Below are positions 45,475 to 51,195 of a DNA stretch of 64,000 bases, in pieces. The notes under the pieces are model-generated. The model did no database searches and had not been told where the DNA came from. It saw only the letters and a program-made list of their open reading frames with translations. Position numbers and translations under genes: made by a program. Source of the DNA: Methylobacterium mesophilicum SR1.6/6 (GTDB lineage: Bacteria > Pseudomonadota > Alphaproteobacteria > Rhizobiales > Beijerinckiaceae); assembly GCF_000364445.2 (NCBI RefSeq), contig NZ_CP043538.1, positions 2,425,612-2,489,611 of the forward strand. The letters are read 5' to 3'. Within the stretch, counting starts at the first letter, position 1. The number at the start of each line of letters is the position of its first letter.

Positions 45475-47499
45475 ATGATTGCAGCCGAGGGACGGATAGA
45501 AACGACGATGGTGCCGGGTCTTAGCGAATTGCTCGACAAGGAGCTGAGCCGGCCGTGGTACGCGCGCACGGGCTCGACGGTGCGGCAGCTCTACGAGGCC
45601 GATCGGGAGAGCTGGCGCCGCCGCAGCGCGCGCATCGCCGCGCATGTCGCCGGGCTGGTCTACGTCATCTTCGCGGTGACCGACTTCGTGCTCGTCCGCG
45701 ACGTCTTCGTGCCCAACCTCATCGCGCGGCTGGCCATCGCCTTGCTGTTCGTGCTGGGGACGGAGGGCCTGTTCAGGCGCGGCGCCCGGTCCCTCCTCAT
45801 TGAGGCGCATTGCGCGTCCGCGACGGTGCTGGCCTACGTGGCATGGCTTCAGATCTCCGATCTGAGCGTGCATCAGGTCAACATGTCGTATTACGCCGCC
45901 TACGGCGTGATCTTCATGACCGGCCAGAACGTGTTCTTCAAGTTCCGCTTCACGGTCGCGGCCGTATCATCCGGCGCGATCCTGCTCGTCTCACAGGTCG
46001 ATCTGCTGCAGCACCGCTACGTCAGCCTGGAATATGTGGTTGCCTACTCCTCCCTGTTCCTGTCGATGTACACGCTGACCCTTTACGTCAACTGGAGGCT
46101 CAACCAGGAGCGCTACCTGGTCTTCATCAACTCGGCGCGGGCGGAGATCCGGCAGAACGAGGCGGTCGAGCGCGGCGCGGCCCTGCTCCGCCTGTCCACG
46201 ACTGACGCGCTGACCGGGCTCGCGAACCGCCGCGCCGTGGACGAGGAGCTGCGGGCCTATTGGCGGGACTGGCAGATGCAGCAGACCAGCTTCGCCGTGA
46301 TCCTCGTCGATGTCGATTATTTCAAAATCTACAACGACTTCTACGGGCACCAGGAGGGCGACCTGTGCCTTGTGGCGGTGGCGGAGGCCATGGCGCAGGT
46401 CAGTGCCCCGGACGGTCACATGGTCGGTCGGTTCGGCGGCGAGGAGTTCATCGTCGTCGCGCCGGCGCGCGACCGCGAGCAGGTGCGCCAAATTTCCGAG
46501 CACCTCCGGCGCGCGGTGGAGGACCTGAAGATCGCGCACGAGCAGCGGCCGGATCAGTTCTGCGTCGTCACCGTCAGCGTGGGGGCCGCCTTCTCGCAGG
46601 ATATACCGGGTACCCGGGTCGAGAGCCTGATCACCGGCGCCGACCGCGCCCTCTACGAAGCGAAGAGGAGCGACCGCAACTGCGTCCGGGTGTTCGATCA
46701 GGACGAAGCGGACCGGCTGGACAGCGACGAGAGCCTCGCGGACCTGCTCCGGACCGCGCAGAGCCGCGACCTGGTGTCCTTGGTCTATCAGCCGGTGATC
46801 GAGGCCGTGTCCGGCACCATTGTCGGCGCCGAGGCGCTGATGCGACTGGCGACCCCGGGGGGCAAGGTGGTCTCGCCCGCGGTCTTCATCCCGCTGGCCG
46901 AGCGGATGGGCATCATCGGGAAGCTCGGCTTCTGGGCGATCCGGACAGCGTGCCGGGACCTCCTCGCCGAAAACGTGGTCCCGCTCGTCAGCGTCAACGT
47001 CTCGCCGATTCAGCTGAAGGCGCCGGGCTTCGCCCTGATGGTCGCGCAGATCCTGGGCGAGGTCGGCGTAGCCCCGTCGCGGCTCGCCATCGAGATCACG
47101 GAGAGCAGCCAGATCGAGAACGAGCCCGAGGTCCTCCGGACGATCCGGGAACTCCGAGCCCTCGGCGTCGAGCTGTGGCTCGACGACTTCGGCACCGGCT
47201 TCGCCGGATTGTCCTGCCTCAGGGAGATCGAATTCGACTTCGTGAAGATCGACCGATCCTTCCTTCACGCTGCCATCACCCCGCGAGGCGCCGAGATCTT
47301 CAGGAGCATCATCGAGCTGGTGCGCAGCACCGGATGCTCGATCATCGTGGAGGGCATCGAGAACGATAAGCAGCGCGACATCTGCATCGAGCAGGATGTC
47401 GATCTGCTGCAGGGCTATCACCTCGGTCGGCCGGCGCCCGTGCAGGTCCTGAAGCGCGCGATGTCCTCGCCCACGAACGTCCTCCGCCTCCAGCGCTGA
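45475..47499 (+). CDS. Membrane-bound GGDEF-EAL protein (diguanylate cyclase/phosphodiesterase)
   Basis: 674 residues from the ATG at 45475 with aggac close upstream; an ATG at 45508 is an alternative. Residues ~55-215 form about six membrane helices, a MASE-type sensor. The GGDEF domain has TDALTGLANRRAV, VDVDYFKIYNDFYGHQEGD and an intact GGEEF. The EAL domain has AEALMRL, NVSPIQL, EITES, LDDFGTGFAGLSCLREIEFD, KIDRSF and VEGIE, so its metal and catalytic residues also look complete. It could both make and break cyclic di-GMP. Confidence 0.93.
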   Translation: MIAAEGRIETTMVPGLSELLDKELSRPWYARTGSTVRQLYEADRESWRRRSARIAAHVAGLVYVIFAVTDFVLVRDVFVPNLIARLAIALLFVLGTEGLFRRGARSLLIEAHCASATVLAYVAWLQISDLSVHQVNMSYYAAYGVIFMTGQNVFFKFRFTVAAVSSGAILLVSQVDLLQHRYVSLEYVVAYSSLFLSMYTLTLYVNWRLNQERYLVFINSARAEIRQNEAVERGAALLRLSTTDALTGLANRRAVDEELRAYWRDWQMQQTSFAVILVDVDYFKIYNDFYGHQEGDLCLVAVAEAMAQVSAPDGHMVGRFGGEEFIVVAPARDREQVRQISEHLRRAVEDLKIAHEQRPDQFCVVTVSVGAAFSQDIPGTRVESLITGADRALYEAKRSDRNCVRVFDQDEADRLDSDESLADLLRTAQSRDLVSLVYQPVIEAVSGTIVGAEALMRLATPGGKVVSPAVFIPLAERMGIIGKLGFWAIRTACRDLLAENVVPLVSVNVSPIQLKAPGFALMVAQILGEVGVAPSRLAIEITESSQIENEPEVLRTIRELRALGVELWLDDFGTGFAGLSCLREIEFDFVKIDRSFLHAAITPRGAEIFRSIIELVRSTGCSIIVEGIENDKQRDICIEQDVDLLQGYHLGRPAPVQVLKRAMSSPTNVLRLQR

Positions 47500-47680: not shown

Positions 47681-47720
47681 CCCTGCACGCCATGCACGGG
47701 TCAGAACAGGAGGAATGCGC

Positions 47721-49208
47721 ATGACAGCCCATGCGACCGGTGATCCAGGAGGCGGGCCGCCTTGGGGATCCCACAACACGGTGACGGTGGTCGATCCGTC
47801 GCCGGTGAACTGGCTCTCCATCACGTGGAATACCATGGAGGAGGCCAATCGCGTCGACCATAACGGCCTCGGTCAGCCGAGCCTCGCGGAATCCTGGCGC
47901 TGGCTCGACGGCGAGACGCTCGAGCTGAAGATGCGCGCCGCCGTCTATCAGGACGGCGAGCCGTTCAACGCCGCCATGTTCAAGCTCGGCTTCGACAAGG
48001 TCCAGGAATGGACCAACCCGCATCCGCCGGGCGCCTTCCTGAACTTCGCCCGGGACGTCACCTGCGAGGCGGTGGACGACCGAACCGTCCGCATGCGCTT
48101 CCCCGGAGGCGATTCGGCGGCGCTCATGAAGCTGCGGGGCATGCATCTGCCTTCGACCCGCTTCTGGAACGAGTGGGGCTTCATCGACCCCAAGACGGGA
48201 TCGGCCGAAGGCCATTGGTGAGTGATCGACGCGCCTGGTCCGTGGGGGACTGGCCCGTTCGTGCTTACCGAAGGCGTCTCGCTGATCGACTCGCGCTCCG
48301 ACCGCGTGGTCATGGAGCCCAACGCGACCTACTGGAATCCCGATCGAAAGCCGACGGTCCGGATCGTCTACGACAACGTGATCGGCAAGGACGAGGGCAT
48401 CAGGTCGGTGGCCGCCGGTGACGGCCGCGTCGACGTGGTGTTCGACCTGACACCGGACGAGGCCAGGGCCTTTCCGGCGAGCGCACATGGCAGGATCCAG
48501 ACGAAGAAGGCGAAGACGATCCTTACGGGCGTCTTCAACGAGAACCGTCCGAACTCGCCCTGGCGCAACCCGGAGGCGCGCAGAGCCCTCAACCTCACCA
48601 TCGACCGGCAGTTCGTGCTCGAACAGGGTGCGCACGGCTACGGCACGATCATCCCGGCCTTCATCCAGCCCGGCCGCTACGGCGCGGACCCGACGCTGGC
48701 GCCCTTCCCGCATGATCCCGAGGCCGCCAAGCGGGCGCTCGCGGCGGCGGGGATCGGCGGGCGGGAGCTCGTGTTCGTCGCCTCGCCGGCCTGGAAGGGC
48801 GTGATCCAGGCGATCAGCCAGTGCCTCGCGAAGGTCGGCCTCGGCTGCCGCTTCGTCAGCGCCAAGGAGGAGCCGCCGGAGGATTTCGACGTCAAGCTCG
48901 AATGGTACTTCGACTGGACGCCGCAATACCCGGTGGCCTGTGTGCACCGCGAGTTCTTCGGAAAGGACGCGACCCTGCGCCAGGGTCCGGAGGATCCGAC
49001 GTTCGATGCCCTCTACGAGAAGCTCCTGCACACGTCGGAGGCCGAGACGGAGGGCGTGGTGCGCGAGGTCGAGCGCTACCTGCAGGATAAGGCCAAGGCC
49101 CTGTTCCTGTATTCGCCCTACACGCTGTTCGCCGTGTCGGACCGGGTCGCGTTCACACCTTACGACACCTGCATGTCGGAACTCGCCGAGACCCGGATCA
49201 GGGGTTGA
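47721..49208 (+). CDS. Selenocysteine-containing family-5 solute-binding protein (in-frame TGA at 48219-48221)
   Basis: 495 residues if the TGA codon is read as selenocysteine (residue 167). The start ATG at 47721 is seven bases behind a perfect aggagg. The frame is the same before and after the TGA, and the SBP_bac_5 (DppA/OppA) pattern runs through it: [40 protein letters not shown], then past the [22 protein letters not shown], and [20 protein letters not shown]. Length is normal for the family without its signal peptide. No signal peptide or lipobox is visible, which is odd for a binding protein. selB follows 73 bp downstream on the same strand. A SECIS-like hairpin sits right behind the TGA. 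A nonsense-mutated pseudogene split at the TGA (GTG restart at 48222) is the alternative, but nothing else in the gene is decayed. Confidence 0.82.
48219..48259 (+). promoter_or_regulatory. Bacterial SECIS element (recoding hairpin behind UGA)
   Basis: After UGA (48219-48221) come 11 nt, then a hairpin: GCC (48233-48235), bulged U at 48236, GGUCC (48237-48241), loop GUGGG (48242-48246), GGACU (48247-48251) and GGC (48252-48254). Below a C/C mismatch, four more pairs extend the stem (48228-48231 with 48256-48259). The E. coli fdhF SECIS also has 11 nt from UGA to its minihelix, three pairs, a bulged U and a loop starting with G. The match is by eye; folding energy was not computed. Confidence 0.78.
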
Positions 49209-49281: not shown

Positions 49282-51195
49282 GTGATCGTCGCCACAGCCG
49301 GCCATATCGACCACGGCAAGACCGCTCTGGTGAAGGCGCTCACCGGGATCGACGCCGACCGCCTGCCGGAGGAGAAGGCGCGCGGCATCACCGTCGATCT
49401 GGGCTTCGCCTACACGCGTCTCGGCACCAGCACGGTCGGCTTCGTGGACGTGCCGGGCCACGAGCGCCTGGTGCGCACCATGGTGGCCGGCGCCACGGGA
49501 GTGGACTTCGCCCTGATCGTCGTCGCGGCCGACGACGGCGTGATGCCCCAGACCCGCGAGCACATCGCGATCCTCGACCTGCTCGGCCTGCGCCGGAGCC
49601 TCGTGGCCATCACCAAGAGCGACCGGGTCGATGCGCGCCGCCTGTCCGAGGTTGAAGCGCAGGTCCGCGCGGCGCTCGCCGACACCGGTCTCGCCGCGAC
49701 GCCCGTCCCAACCCCCGTTCTGGCCTGCTCGGCTTTGAGCGGCGCCGGTCTCGCCGAGGTGACCCGGGAACTGGGGGCGGCGGCGGCCATGCCGTCCGAT
49801 GCGGTCGCTGCCGGAGACTTCCGGCTCGCAGTCGACCGCTGCTTCACCATCGTCGGCGCCGGCCTCGTCGTCACCGGAGCGATCCACTCCGGCGCTGTCC
49901 GGCCGGGAGATCACCTTGTCGTCTGTCCGAGCGGGTTCGAGGCGCGGGTGCGGGGCGTGCGTGCCGGTGACGAACCCTGTGACGTCGCGCGGGCCGGTCA
50001 GCGCTGTGCCCTCAATCTCACCGGTCCGCGGTTGTCGCGGTCGGGCATCCATCGGGGCGACTGGATCCTGGCGCCGCACCTCCACGGGCCCACCAGCCGG
50101 CTCGACGTGTCGCTGCGCGTCCTCCCCGGCGAGGCGCGGCCGCTCCGGCACCGCACGCCCGTCCACATCCATCTCGGCGCGGCCTCCCTGACCGGACGTG
50201 TGCTGCTGCCACCCGAGACCACGGTCGAGCCCGGCGCGGCGGCACACGCGCAGATCGCCCTCGACGGCAGTCTCGGCGCGCTGCACGGGGACCGCTTCGT
50301 GCTGCGGGACGCATCCGCCGCCCGCACGCTCGGCGGCGGCCGGGTCATCGACGTCGACGGGCCGCGCCGGGGCGCCTGGGCGCCGGTCCGGCGCGCTGCG
50401 GTCGCGGCCTTGGACACGACGGACCACGGCGCCGCGCTCGCCGCTCTTCTCGACCTCAGCGAGGTGGGAGCCGACCTCGACCGCTTCGCCCGCACCCGCA
50501 ACATCCCGAGAGCGGAGATGAGCGCCCTCTCGGGCACGCTCGACCTCGTCACGGAGGCGGGGGGCCGCCGGGGCTTCGCCGGCGCGCGGATCGTCGCGCT
50601 CGGCGCGTCGGTCGCGGCGATCCTCGACGCCACGCACCGCTCGGAACCGGACAACCCGGGCCTGACGGTCGAGGAGATCGGCGAGCGCCTGGCCCCGGCG
50701 GAACGCCCGGCCCTGCGCGTGGCCCTCGACCGGTCGCTCGGGGGGCAGCACATCGCCCGGACCGGCCCCCACTTCCACCGTCCCGACCACGTCGTCCGCC
50801 TCGCGCCGCGCGAGGCCGCCCTCTACGACGTCGTCCGGACCGTGCTGGAGGAGGCCGGTCTCGATCAGCCCCGGCTGGCCGATCTCGCGGCGCGCGTCGA
50901 CCGCGCGCCGGAGGCGCTGCGCCCCTCCCTCGACAAGTTCGGTCGACTCGGCTGGCTGCGGCGCGTGTCCGGACATTACTACGTCCTGCCGGCAGTCCTT
51001 GCGGAATTGGCCGACAGGGCGCGCACGGTCGCGGCCGCGCATCCGCAGGCACTGCTCACGGTCGGCCGCTTCCGCGAGGCAACCGGGATCAGCCGGAACA
51101 TGACGCTGCCGCTGCTGACGTATTTCGACGCGCGCGGGTTCACGACGCGCGTCACGGACGGACGGCTGGTGCGGCCGGGCGGTTGCGACCTGTGA
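49282..51195 (+). CDS. selB: Selenocysteine-specific translation elongation factor SelB
   Basis: 637 residues from a GTG at 49282; E. coli SelB has 614. GTPase motifs: GHIDHGKT (7-14), the SelB-style [14 protein letters not shown] switch, DVPGH (56-60), and TKSD (111-114). EF-Tu-like barrels II and III follow ([20 protein letters not shown]). The C-terminal ~250 residues are the winged-helix arms that bind the SECIS hairpin ([40 protein letters not shown]). It carries Sec-tRNA to UGA codons in the ribosome. selA, selD and selC are not in the window and must be elsewhere. Confidence 0.95.

Follow-up and report, generated by a model that had tools for sequence, protein, structure and literature searches.

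At 47721–49208 on the forward strand of the window (the whole 64-kb stretch of DNA analysed here) lies a gene, SBP-U, for a family-5 solute-binding protein with a predicted selenocysteine (Sec) at residue 167. A likely ribosome site, AGGAGG (47708–47713, same strand), stands 7 bases 5' of the ATG at 47721, and the frame contains a single internal TGA, codon 167 at 48219–48221, before its final stop, which is TGA too, at 49206–49208. The Pfam domain SBP_bac_5 (PF00496) matches residues 52–381, on both sides of the internal TGA, with an E-value of 8.4e-38 and 130.9 bits against a gathering score of 32.4 bits. Seventy-three bases downstream on the forward strand, selB2 runs from a GTG at 49282 to 51195; its product, the second SelB of this genome, scores 346.2 bits with TIGR00475 (cut-off 242.25 bits). 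A preliminary description of this DNA had reported exactly one in-frame TGA, homology continuing across it in the same frame, an intact ribosome site and final stop, and selB as the next gene on the strand, and all of this is borne out. The gene 5' of SBP-U (45475–47499) encodes a GGDEF-EAL protein, to which, among the compared loci, only L022 has a partial match (34%), located 3' of selB. Rfam and tRNA scans of the 64-kb window found nothing. The genome (G000) is one contig of 6.56 Mb, and the closest named relatives at the SBP-U locus are Methylobacterium, namely M. pseudosasicola (91%) and M. fujisawaense (90%).

Conservation of the TGA and of a downstream hairpin

We aligned the window's SBP-U gene with those of 21 other loci, leaving out L001 (which is the window), L030 (which is L023), the broken copies L028 and L029, and the genus loci L036–L046, many of which come from genomes already in the alignment. 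The preliminary description had proposed looking for the TGA among relatives, and it is found at codon 167 in all 22 aligned genes, at identities down to about 50%. Among 99 genomes of the genus there were 21 SBP-U matches in 20 genomes, of which 20 matches have one in-frame TGA and the remaining one stops at residue 85; among 199 genomes of the family, all four matches (three genomes) have one TGA. Both samples contain the window's own genome. In six pairwise comparisons dN/dS was 0.08–0.12 before the TGA and 0.20–0.27 after it, values which indicate that purifying selection acts on both sides. SBP-U thus shows what is expected of a selenoprotein gene, a conserved TGA with coding sequence on either side.

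A SECIS-like hairpin, GCC-Y-GGUCC-[GUGGG]-GGACY-GGC, is predicted at 48233–48254 (forward strand), with its loop at 48242–48246, from codon conservation and a consensus fold. Its codons 173–176 are identical in all 22 aligned genes, and in a set of nine diverged genes no other stretch of identical codons is as long, codons 91–93 being the sole other run of at least three. The consensus fold energy of these nine genes was −15.6, against −7.8 (SD 2.5) in synonymous randomizations, with 1 in 300 as low. Single-sequence hairpin energies were ordinary (z = −0.87, the mean being attained by 90 of 300 randomizations), and codon conservation over codons 171–180 was just modestly unusual (P = 0.016). 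The invariant codons and the consensus fold together point to a SECIS hairpin directly 3' of the UGA, with predicted SelB binding. The SECIS elements of the Sec formate dehydrogenases in the same genome are likewise hairpins directly after the UGA, with similar spacing and a loop that starts with GU; their loops are GUU or GUC (two genes), in contrast to the invariant GUGGG of SBP-U.

The selenocysteine pathway and a second SelB

Absence of selA, selC or selD had been named as an observation that would speak against a selenoprotein here, and all three are present in G000: selA scores 553.5 bits, tRNA-Sec 76.1 bits and selD 405.7 bits, and two selB genes lie above the cut-off (345 and 265 bits), so that the genome holds selA, selB, selC and selD. 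It also has two formate dehydrogenase genes with an in-frame TGA. Across the genus sample, selA was above the cut-off in 45 of 99 genomes (two more have weak matches), and SBP-U occurred in 20 of these 45 as opposed to none of the other 54, a distribution with a chance of 7e-9 under the assumption, not valid here, of independent genomes. The expectation that TGA copies would be confined to genomes with Sec machinery therefore held for the 20 genus genomes with SBP-U, every one of them selA-positive. The tRNA-Sec model gave a match above its cut-off in 98 of 99 genomes, because another match of about 50 bits occurs nearly everywhere; strong matches (at least 73 bits) were found in 44, all selA-positive. 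Taken together, the conserved TGA, the SECIS-like hairpin, the presence of selA, selB, selC and selD and the restriction to selA-positive genomes make selenocysteine at codon 167 well supported at the level of sequence, from which we infer that Sec is actually inserted into the protein.

Our search of 53 genomes for Sec formate dehydrogenases left eight with no match (G240, G1046, G1047, G1045, G282, G1048, G230 and G261), among which G240 and G1046 are apparently one genome, as are G282 and G1048 (85% complete). Among the genomes with SBP-U, those of two Methylorubrum species and a Rhodospirillales assembly yielded no related Sec formate dehydrogenase, and there SBP-U may contribute to keeping the Sec pathway in place. 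G230 and G261 possess selA, selB and tRNA-Sec with neither SBP-U nor the query Sec formate dehydrogenase; it is therefore likely that another selenoprotein exists in these two genomes, and hence in the genus, which leaves SBP-U unproven as the sole selenoprotein of the Methylorubrum species. One formate dehydrogenase gene, that of G257, appeared to have no stop at the Sec position; the codon contains an N and the case was dropped.

Several arrangements of Sec genes were observed along the way. tRNA-Sec lies directly after selB at G108:C149:48155-50138 and G228:C1:3265301-3267290, an arrangement similar to the overlap of selB and selC that the accessible part of PMC8124441 describes in Alphaproteobacteria. 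In two Methylorubrum an ABC transporter lies beside selB–selA–tRNA-Sec (L025:13785-16904 and L027:13757-16894); the binding protein of the L025 transporter matches TIGR04553, 'putative selenate ABC transporter' (341.9 bits, above the cut-off of 250 bits), and its L027 counterpart is 84% identical.

SBP-U was recovered from one of 385 genomes in a sample of the class and from one of 299 in the order of G1045, and the TGA-hairpin pattern from one of 397 in a sample of the order; in each case this was the centre genome itself, so the family appears to be rare in named genomes. Among viral contigs one stretch fitted the pattern and no SBP-U relative was found. A protein search returned 401 related proteins, many of them metagenomic with taxon unknown. 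The 120 listed are all 295–356 residues long, cover 31–66% of the query and mostly represent the part after the TGA, so gene callers have cut the SBP-U gene; split in this way, the family has been overlooked.

The SelB adjoining SBP-U is not the common SelB of the genus. SelB2 is 34% identical to the other SelB of G000 (L059). Eighteen genomes of the genus sample have a SelB of at least 331 bits, a set identical to the 18 genomes with an intact SBP-U; G257 and G268, the genomes with a broken SBP-U, have the lower-type SelB only (276 and 266 bits, respectively). The broken copy of G268 (L028:1369-1974) loses its frame near residue 190–202, and in that of G257 (L029:8001-9020) residues 1–85 continue into a SelB2 remnant. 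SelB directly follows SBP-U in 18 of 19 intact loci, the exception being G240, where it lies beyond tRNA-Sec and selA. In SelB trees of 35 rows, and then of 36 rows with the window's SelB, the SBP-U-linked SelBs, including SelB2, fall into a single group with those of Methylorubrum (support 99–100), while the common Methylobacterium SelB is distant (branch length 1.8). G236 has, besides its SBP-U-linked SelB, an extra SelB of 423 bits adjoining selA, and this one adjoins the SBP-U group in the trees. The two proteins are out of step in their divergence, the L009 locus having identities of 89% for SBP-U and 63% for SelB2. SBP-U and selB also occur on a 658 kb plasmid of M. radiotolerans (L049, NZ_CP090580.1 270133-287614), whose gene table, incomplete by design, gives selB and has no feature at SBP-U. 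The surroundings of SBP-U on this plasmid include molybdopterin and molybdate-type ABC genes.

An inserted Sec segment and two forms of the protein

Within the protein, the Sec closes an inserted segment of about residues 155–167 (48183–48221, forward strand), the exact ends of which vary with the alignment. This 13-residue insertion is absent from all 39 generic relatives aligned. When binding proteins from the same genome were aligned across the region, one of six (L006) showed no gap, and the insertion is therefore not unique with respect to every family-5 protein; in that alignment none of the six has Cys at the Sec position. Residues 1–166 searched against proteins of full-length size matched one generic binding protein, weakly, so the search revealed no relative of full length with Cys or Ser. 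Together with the absence of the insertion from generic relatives, this leaves the Sec-versus-Cys comparison proposed in the preliminary description without a Cys partner. Sec is the sole invariant Cys/Sec column of the SBP-U family, two members of which lack Cys altogether. The preliminary description had placed a GTGP motif ten residues after the Sec; the motif is there, and it starts nine residues after it. We take GTGP to mark the position at the ligand cleft of family-5 proteins, and the Sec would then lie in or near the binding cleft. The family-5 fold is predicted over the whole length of SBP-U, and transport-type structures were matched among the Foldseek matches listed. The first structure model (pLDDT 77.4) was poor around the Sec; the second was better, with confidence below 50 at residues 163–165.

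For the window's copy we found no support for the exported binding protein that the preliminary description implied. The window's clade has no signal peptide visible by eye, and thus appears to lack the export signal of an ABC importer binding protein; L010 and L016 have no room for one, because a stop in frame lies 9 codons (L010) and 5 codons (L016) 5' of the start. The window's SBP-U is therefore probably cytosolic and not part of an importer. Members of a sister clade do seem to be exported, since L025, L027, L032/L069 and L115 show, again by eye, a signal-peptide-like start ahead of the same mature sequence. In all four of these loci a TlpA/ResA-like CxxC gene stands 5' of SBP-U, with dsbD divergent to tlpA in L025 and L027; no TlpA-like gene was found in the searched flanks of six loci of the other form (L010, L013, L022, L023, L024 and L068). 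The two forms separate with 100% support in a 16-row tree, and can share a genome: in G1045 one locus (L024) lines up SBP-U, selB2, tRNA-Sec and selA on the same strand and another (L115) pairs tlpA with SBP-U, and G102 likewise has both forms. Among the neighbouring genes classified, no permease gene was identified beside SBP-U, nor any adjacent partner ATPase; such partners may be encoded elsewhere.

Decoding, function and comparison with known systems

TlpA and DsbD have a thiol-reducing role outside the cell membrane. The TGA conservation, the hairpin, the SelB linkage, the Sec pathway, the absence of a signal peptide and the tlpA arrangement are supported by the sequence comparisons, and suggest to us, with a probability of about 0.6, that SBP-U is a new selenoprotein family built on the family-5 fold, with a lone selenol that is kept reduced and a SelB of its own for decoding. 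UGA 167 would be read as Sec by means of the hairpin starting 12 bases downstream, probably by SelB2, leaving the Sec formate dehydrogenases probably to SelB1, the genome's other SelB; this assignment draws on the linkage of selB2 to SBP-U and on the loop differences in the two formate dehydrogenases. The Sec, on its inserted segment immediately ahead of GTGPF, may be a lone selenolate, kept reduced, inside the cleft or close to it, where it holds a soft metal or metalloid or, as a nucleophile, reacts with a thiol-reactive ligand; the preliminary description had suggested that it may bind a metal, thiol or selenium compound. Such single-selenolate working seems the most likely because the Sec stands just before GTGPF and there is no conserved Cys elsewhere. 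In the exported form, the TlpA-like thiol reductase and DsbD would keep the selenol reduced outside the cell membrane; the window's form would depend on the reducing conditions of the cytosol, where it would serve in binding or redox chemistry and not in import. A more specific version, in which one cell runs two Sec channels, SelB1 for the formate dehydrogenase hairpins and SelB2 for the SBP-U hairpin only, with SBP-U and SelB2 forming a movable private module and SBP-U being a cytosolic, single-selenol binding protein, is one that we put forward tentatively, at somewhat less than even odds.

How the two SelBs divide their work is where the nearest competing account departs from this. Sec could be real with both SelBs reading both hairpins, and the linkage of selB and SBP-U could be that of a mobile or selfish pair travelling together, as the M. 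radiotolerans plasmid, the discordant identities of SelB2 and SBP-U and the shared GU at the start of both types of loop would allow. We nevertheless regard this as unlikely, given the exact coincidence of the 18 intact-SBP-U genomes with the high-scoring SelB, and given that the two genomes with a broken SBP-U have no intact high-scoring SelB yet keep another one. A role as an importer component, in which Sec replaces a ligand-binding residue and SBP-U feeds an ABC transporter encoded elsewhere, would fit the whole-length match to transport-type family-5 structures and the signal-peptide-like starts of the sister clade; since the window's clade shows no signal peptide and no permease gene was identified beside SBP-U among the neighbours classified, we find it improbable.

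Two further explanations deny the Sec altogether. If the TGA were a true stop, the locus would encode two separate proteins, the second begun after the stop, and indeed the codon after the TGA is GTG in nine of the 22 aligned genes, including the window's, and the second part is stored as a separate protein in databases. The same codon is GTC, not a start, in the other 13, on which count we rejected a split gene; the conservation of the hairpin codons and the restriction to selA-positive genomes in the genus sample argue against it as well, and little credence can be given to it. Still less can be given to a pseudogene or a sequencing error, for which there are the broken copies in two relatives (L028 and L029) and against which stand the recurrence of the TGA in all 22 aligned genes and across separate assemblies from many species, together with the dN/dS of 0.20–0.27 after it; we rejected this explanation too, as having next to no chance of being correct.

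The favoured reading, a family-5 selenoprotein with its own SelB, has partial parallels. Most known prokaryotic selenoproteins are redox proteins, according to the accessible parts of reviews. Sec-containing ABC substrate-binding proteins are known from SaoX (NF040735), SaoB (NF040727) and BtuF with CxxU, as far as the accessible part of the 2026 review PMC13188914 reports, and share with SBP-U the character of binding-protein-type selenoproteins; the words 'solute', 'oligopeptide' and 'OppA' do not occur in that part. The SaoX and SaoB models were not among the eight NCBIfam matches of SBP-U (E of 0.01 or better), and SBP-U differs from all these proteins in belonging to family 5, in having its Sec in an inserted segment and in the adjoining second SelB. 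From SBP_bac_5 proteins such as NikA, DppA, GbpA, AccA and AapF it differs by its Sec segment and the lack of a signal peptide, and it scores 68.3 bits with the NikA model TIGR02294, well below the cut-off of 393 bits. The literature searched gave no description of a Sec-containing SBP_bac_5 protein and none of a bacterium whose two SelBs differ in specificity. In SBP-U, then, an unannotated family would have its Sec carried by a segment added to a binding-protein fold, no Cys counterpart having been found. SelB2 for its part resembles the Sec-specific elongation factor SelB, to judge from its TIGR00475 score, and what sets it apart is that the genome has another SelB besides and that its gene is linked to a single selenoprotein gene. 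This adjoining second SelB makes it testable whether two SelB–SECIS pairs of different specificity operate in one cell, which, if true, would help engineered Sec insertion.
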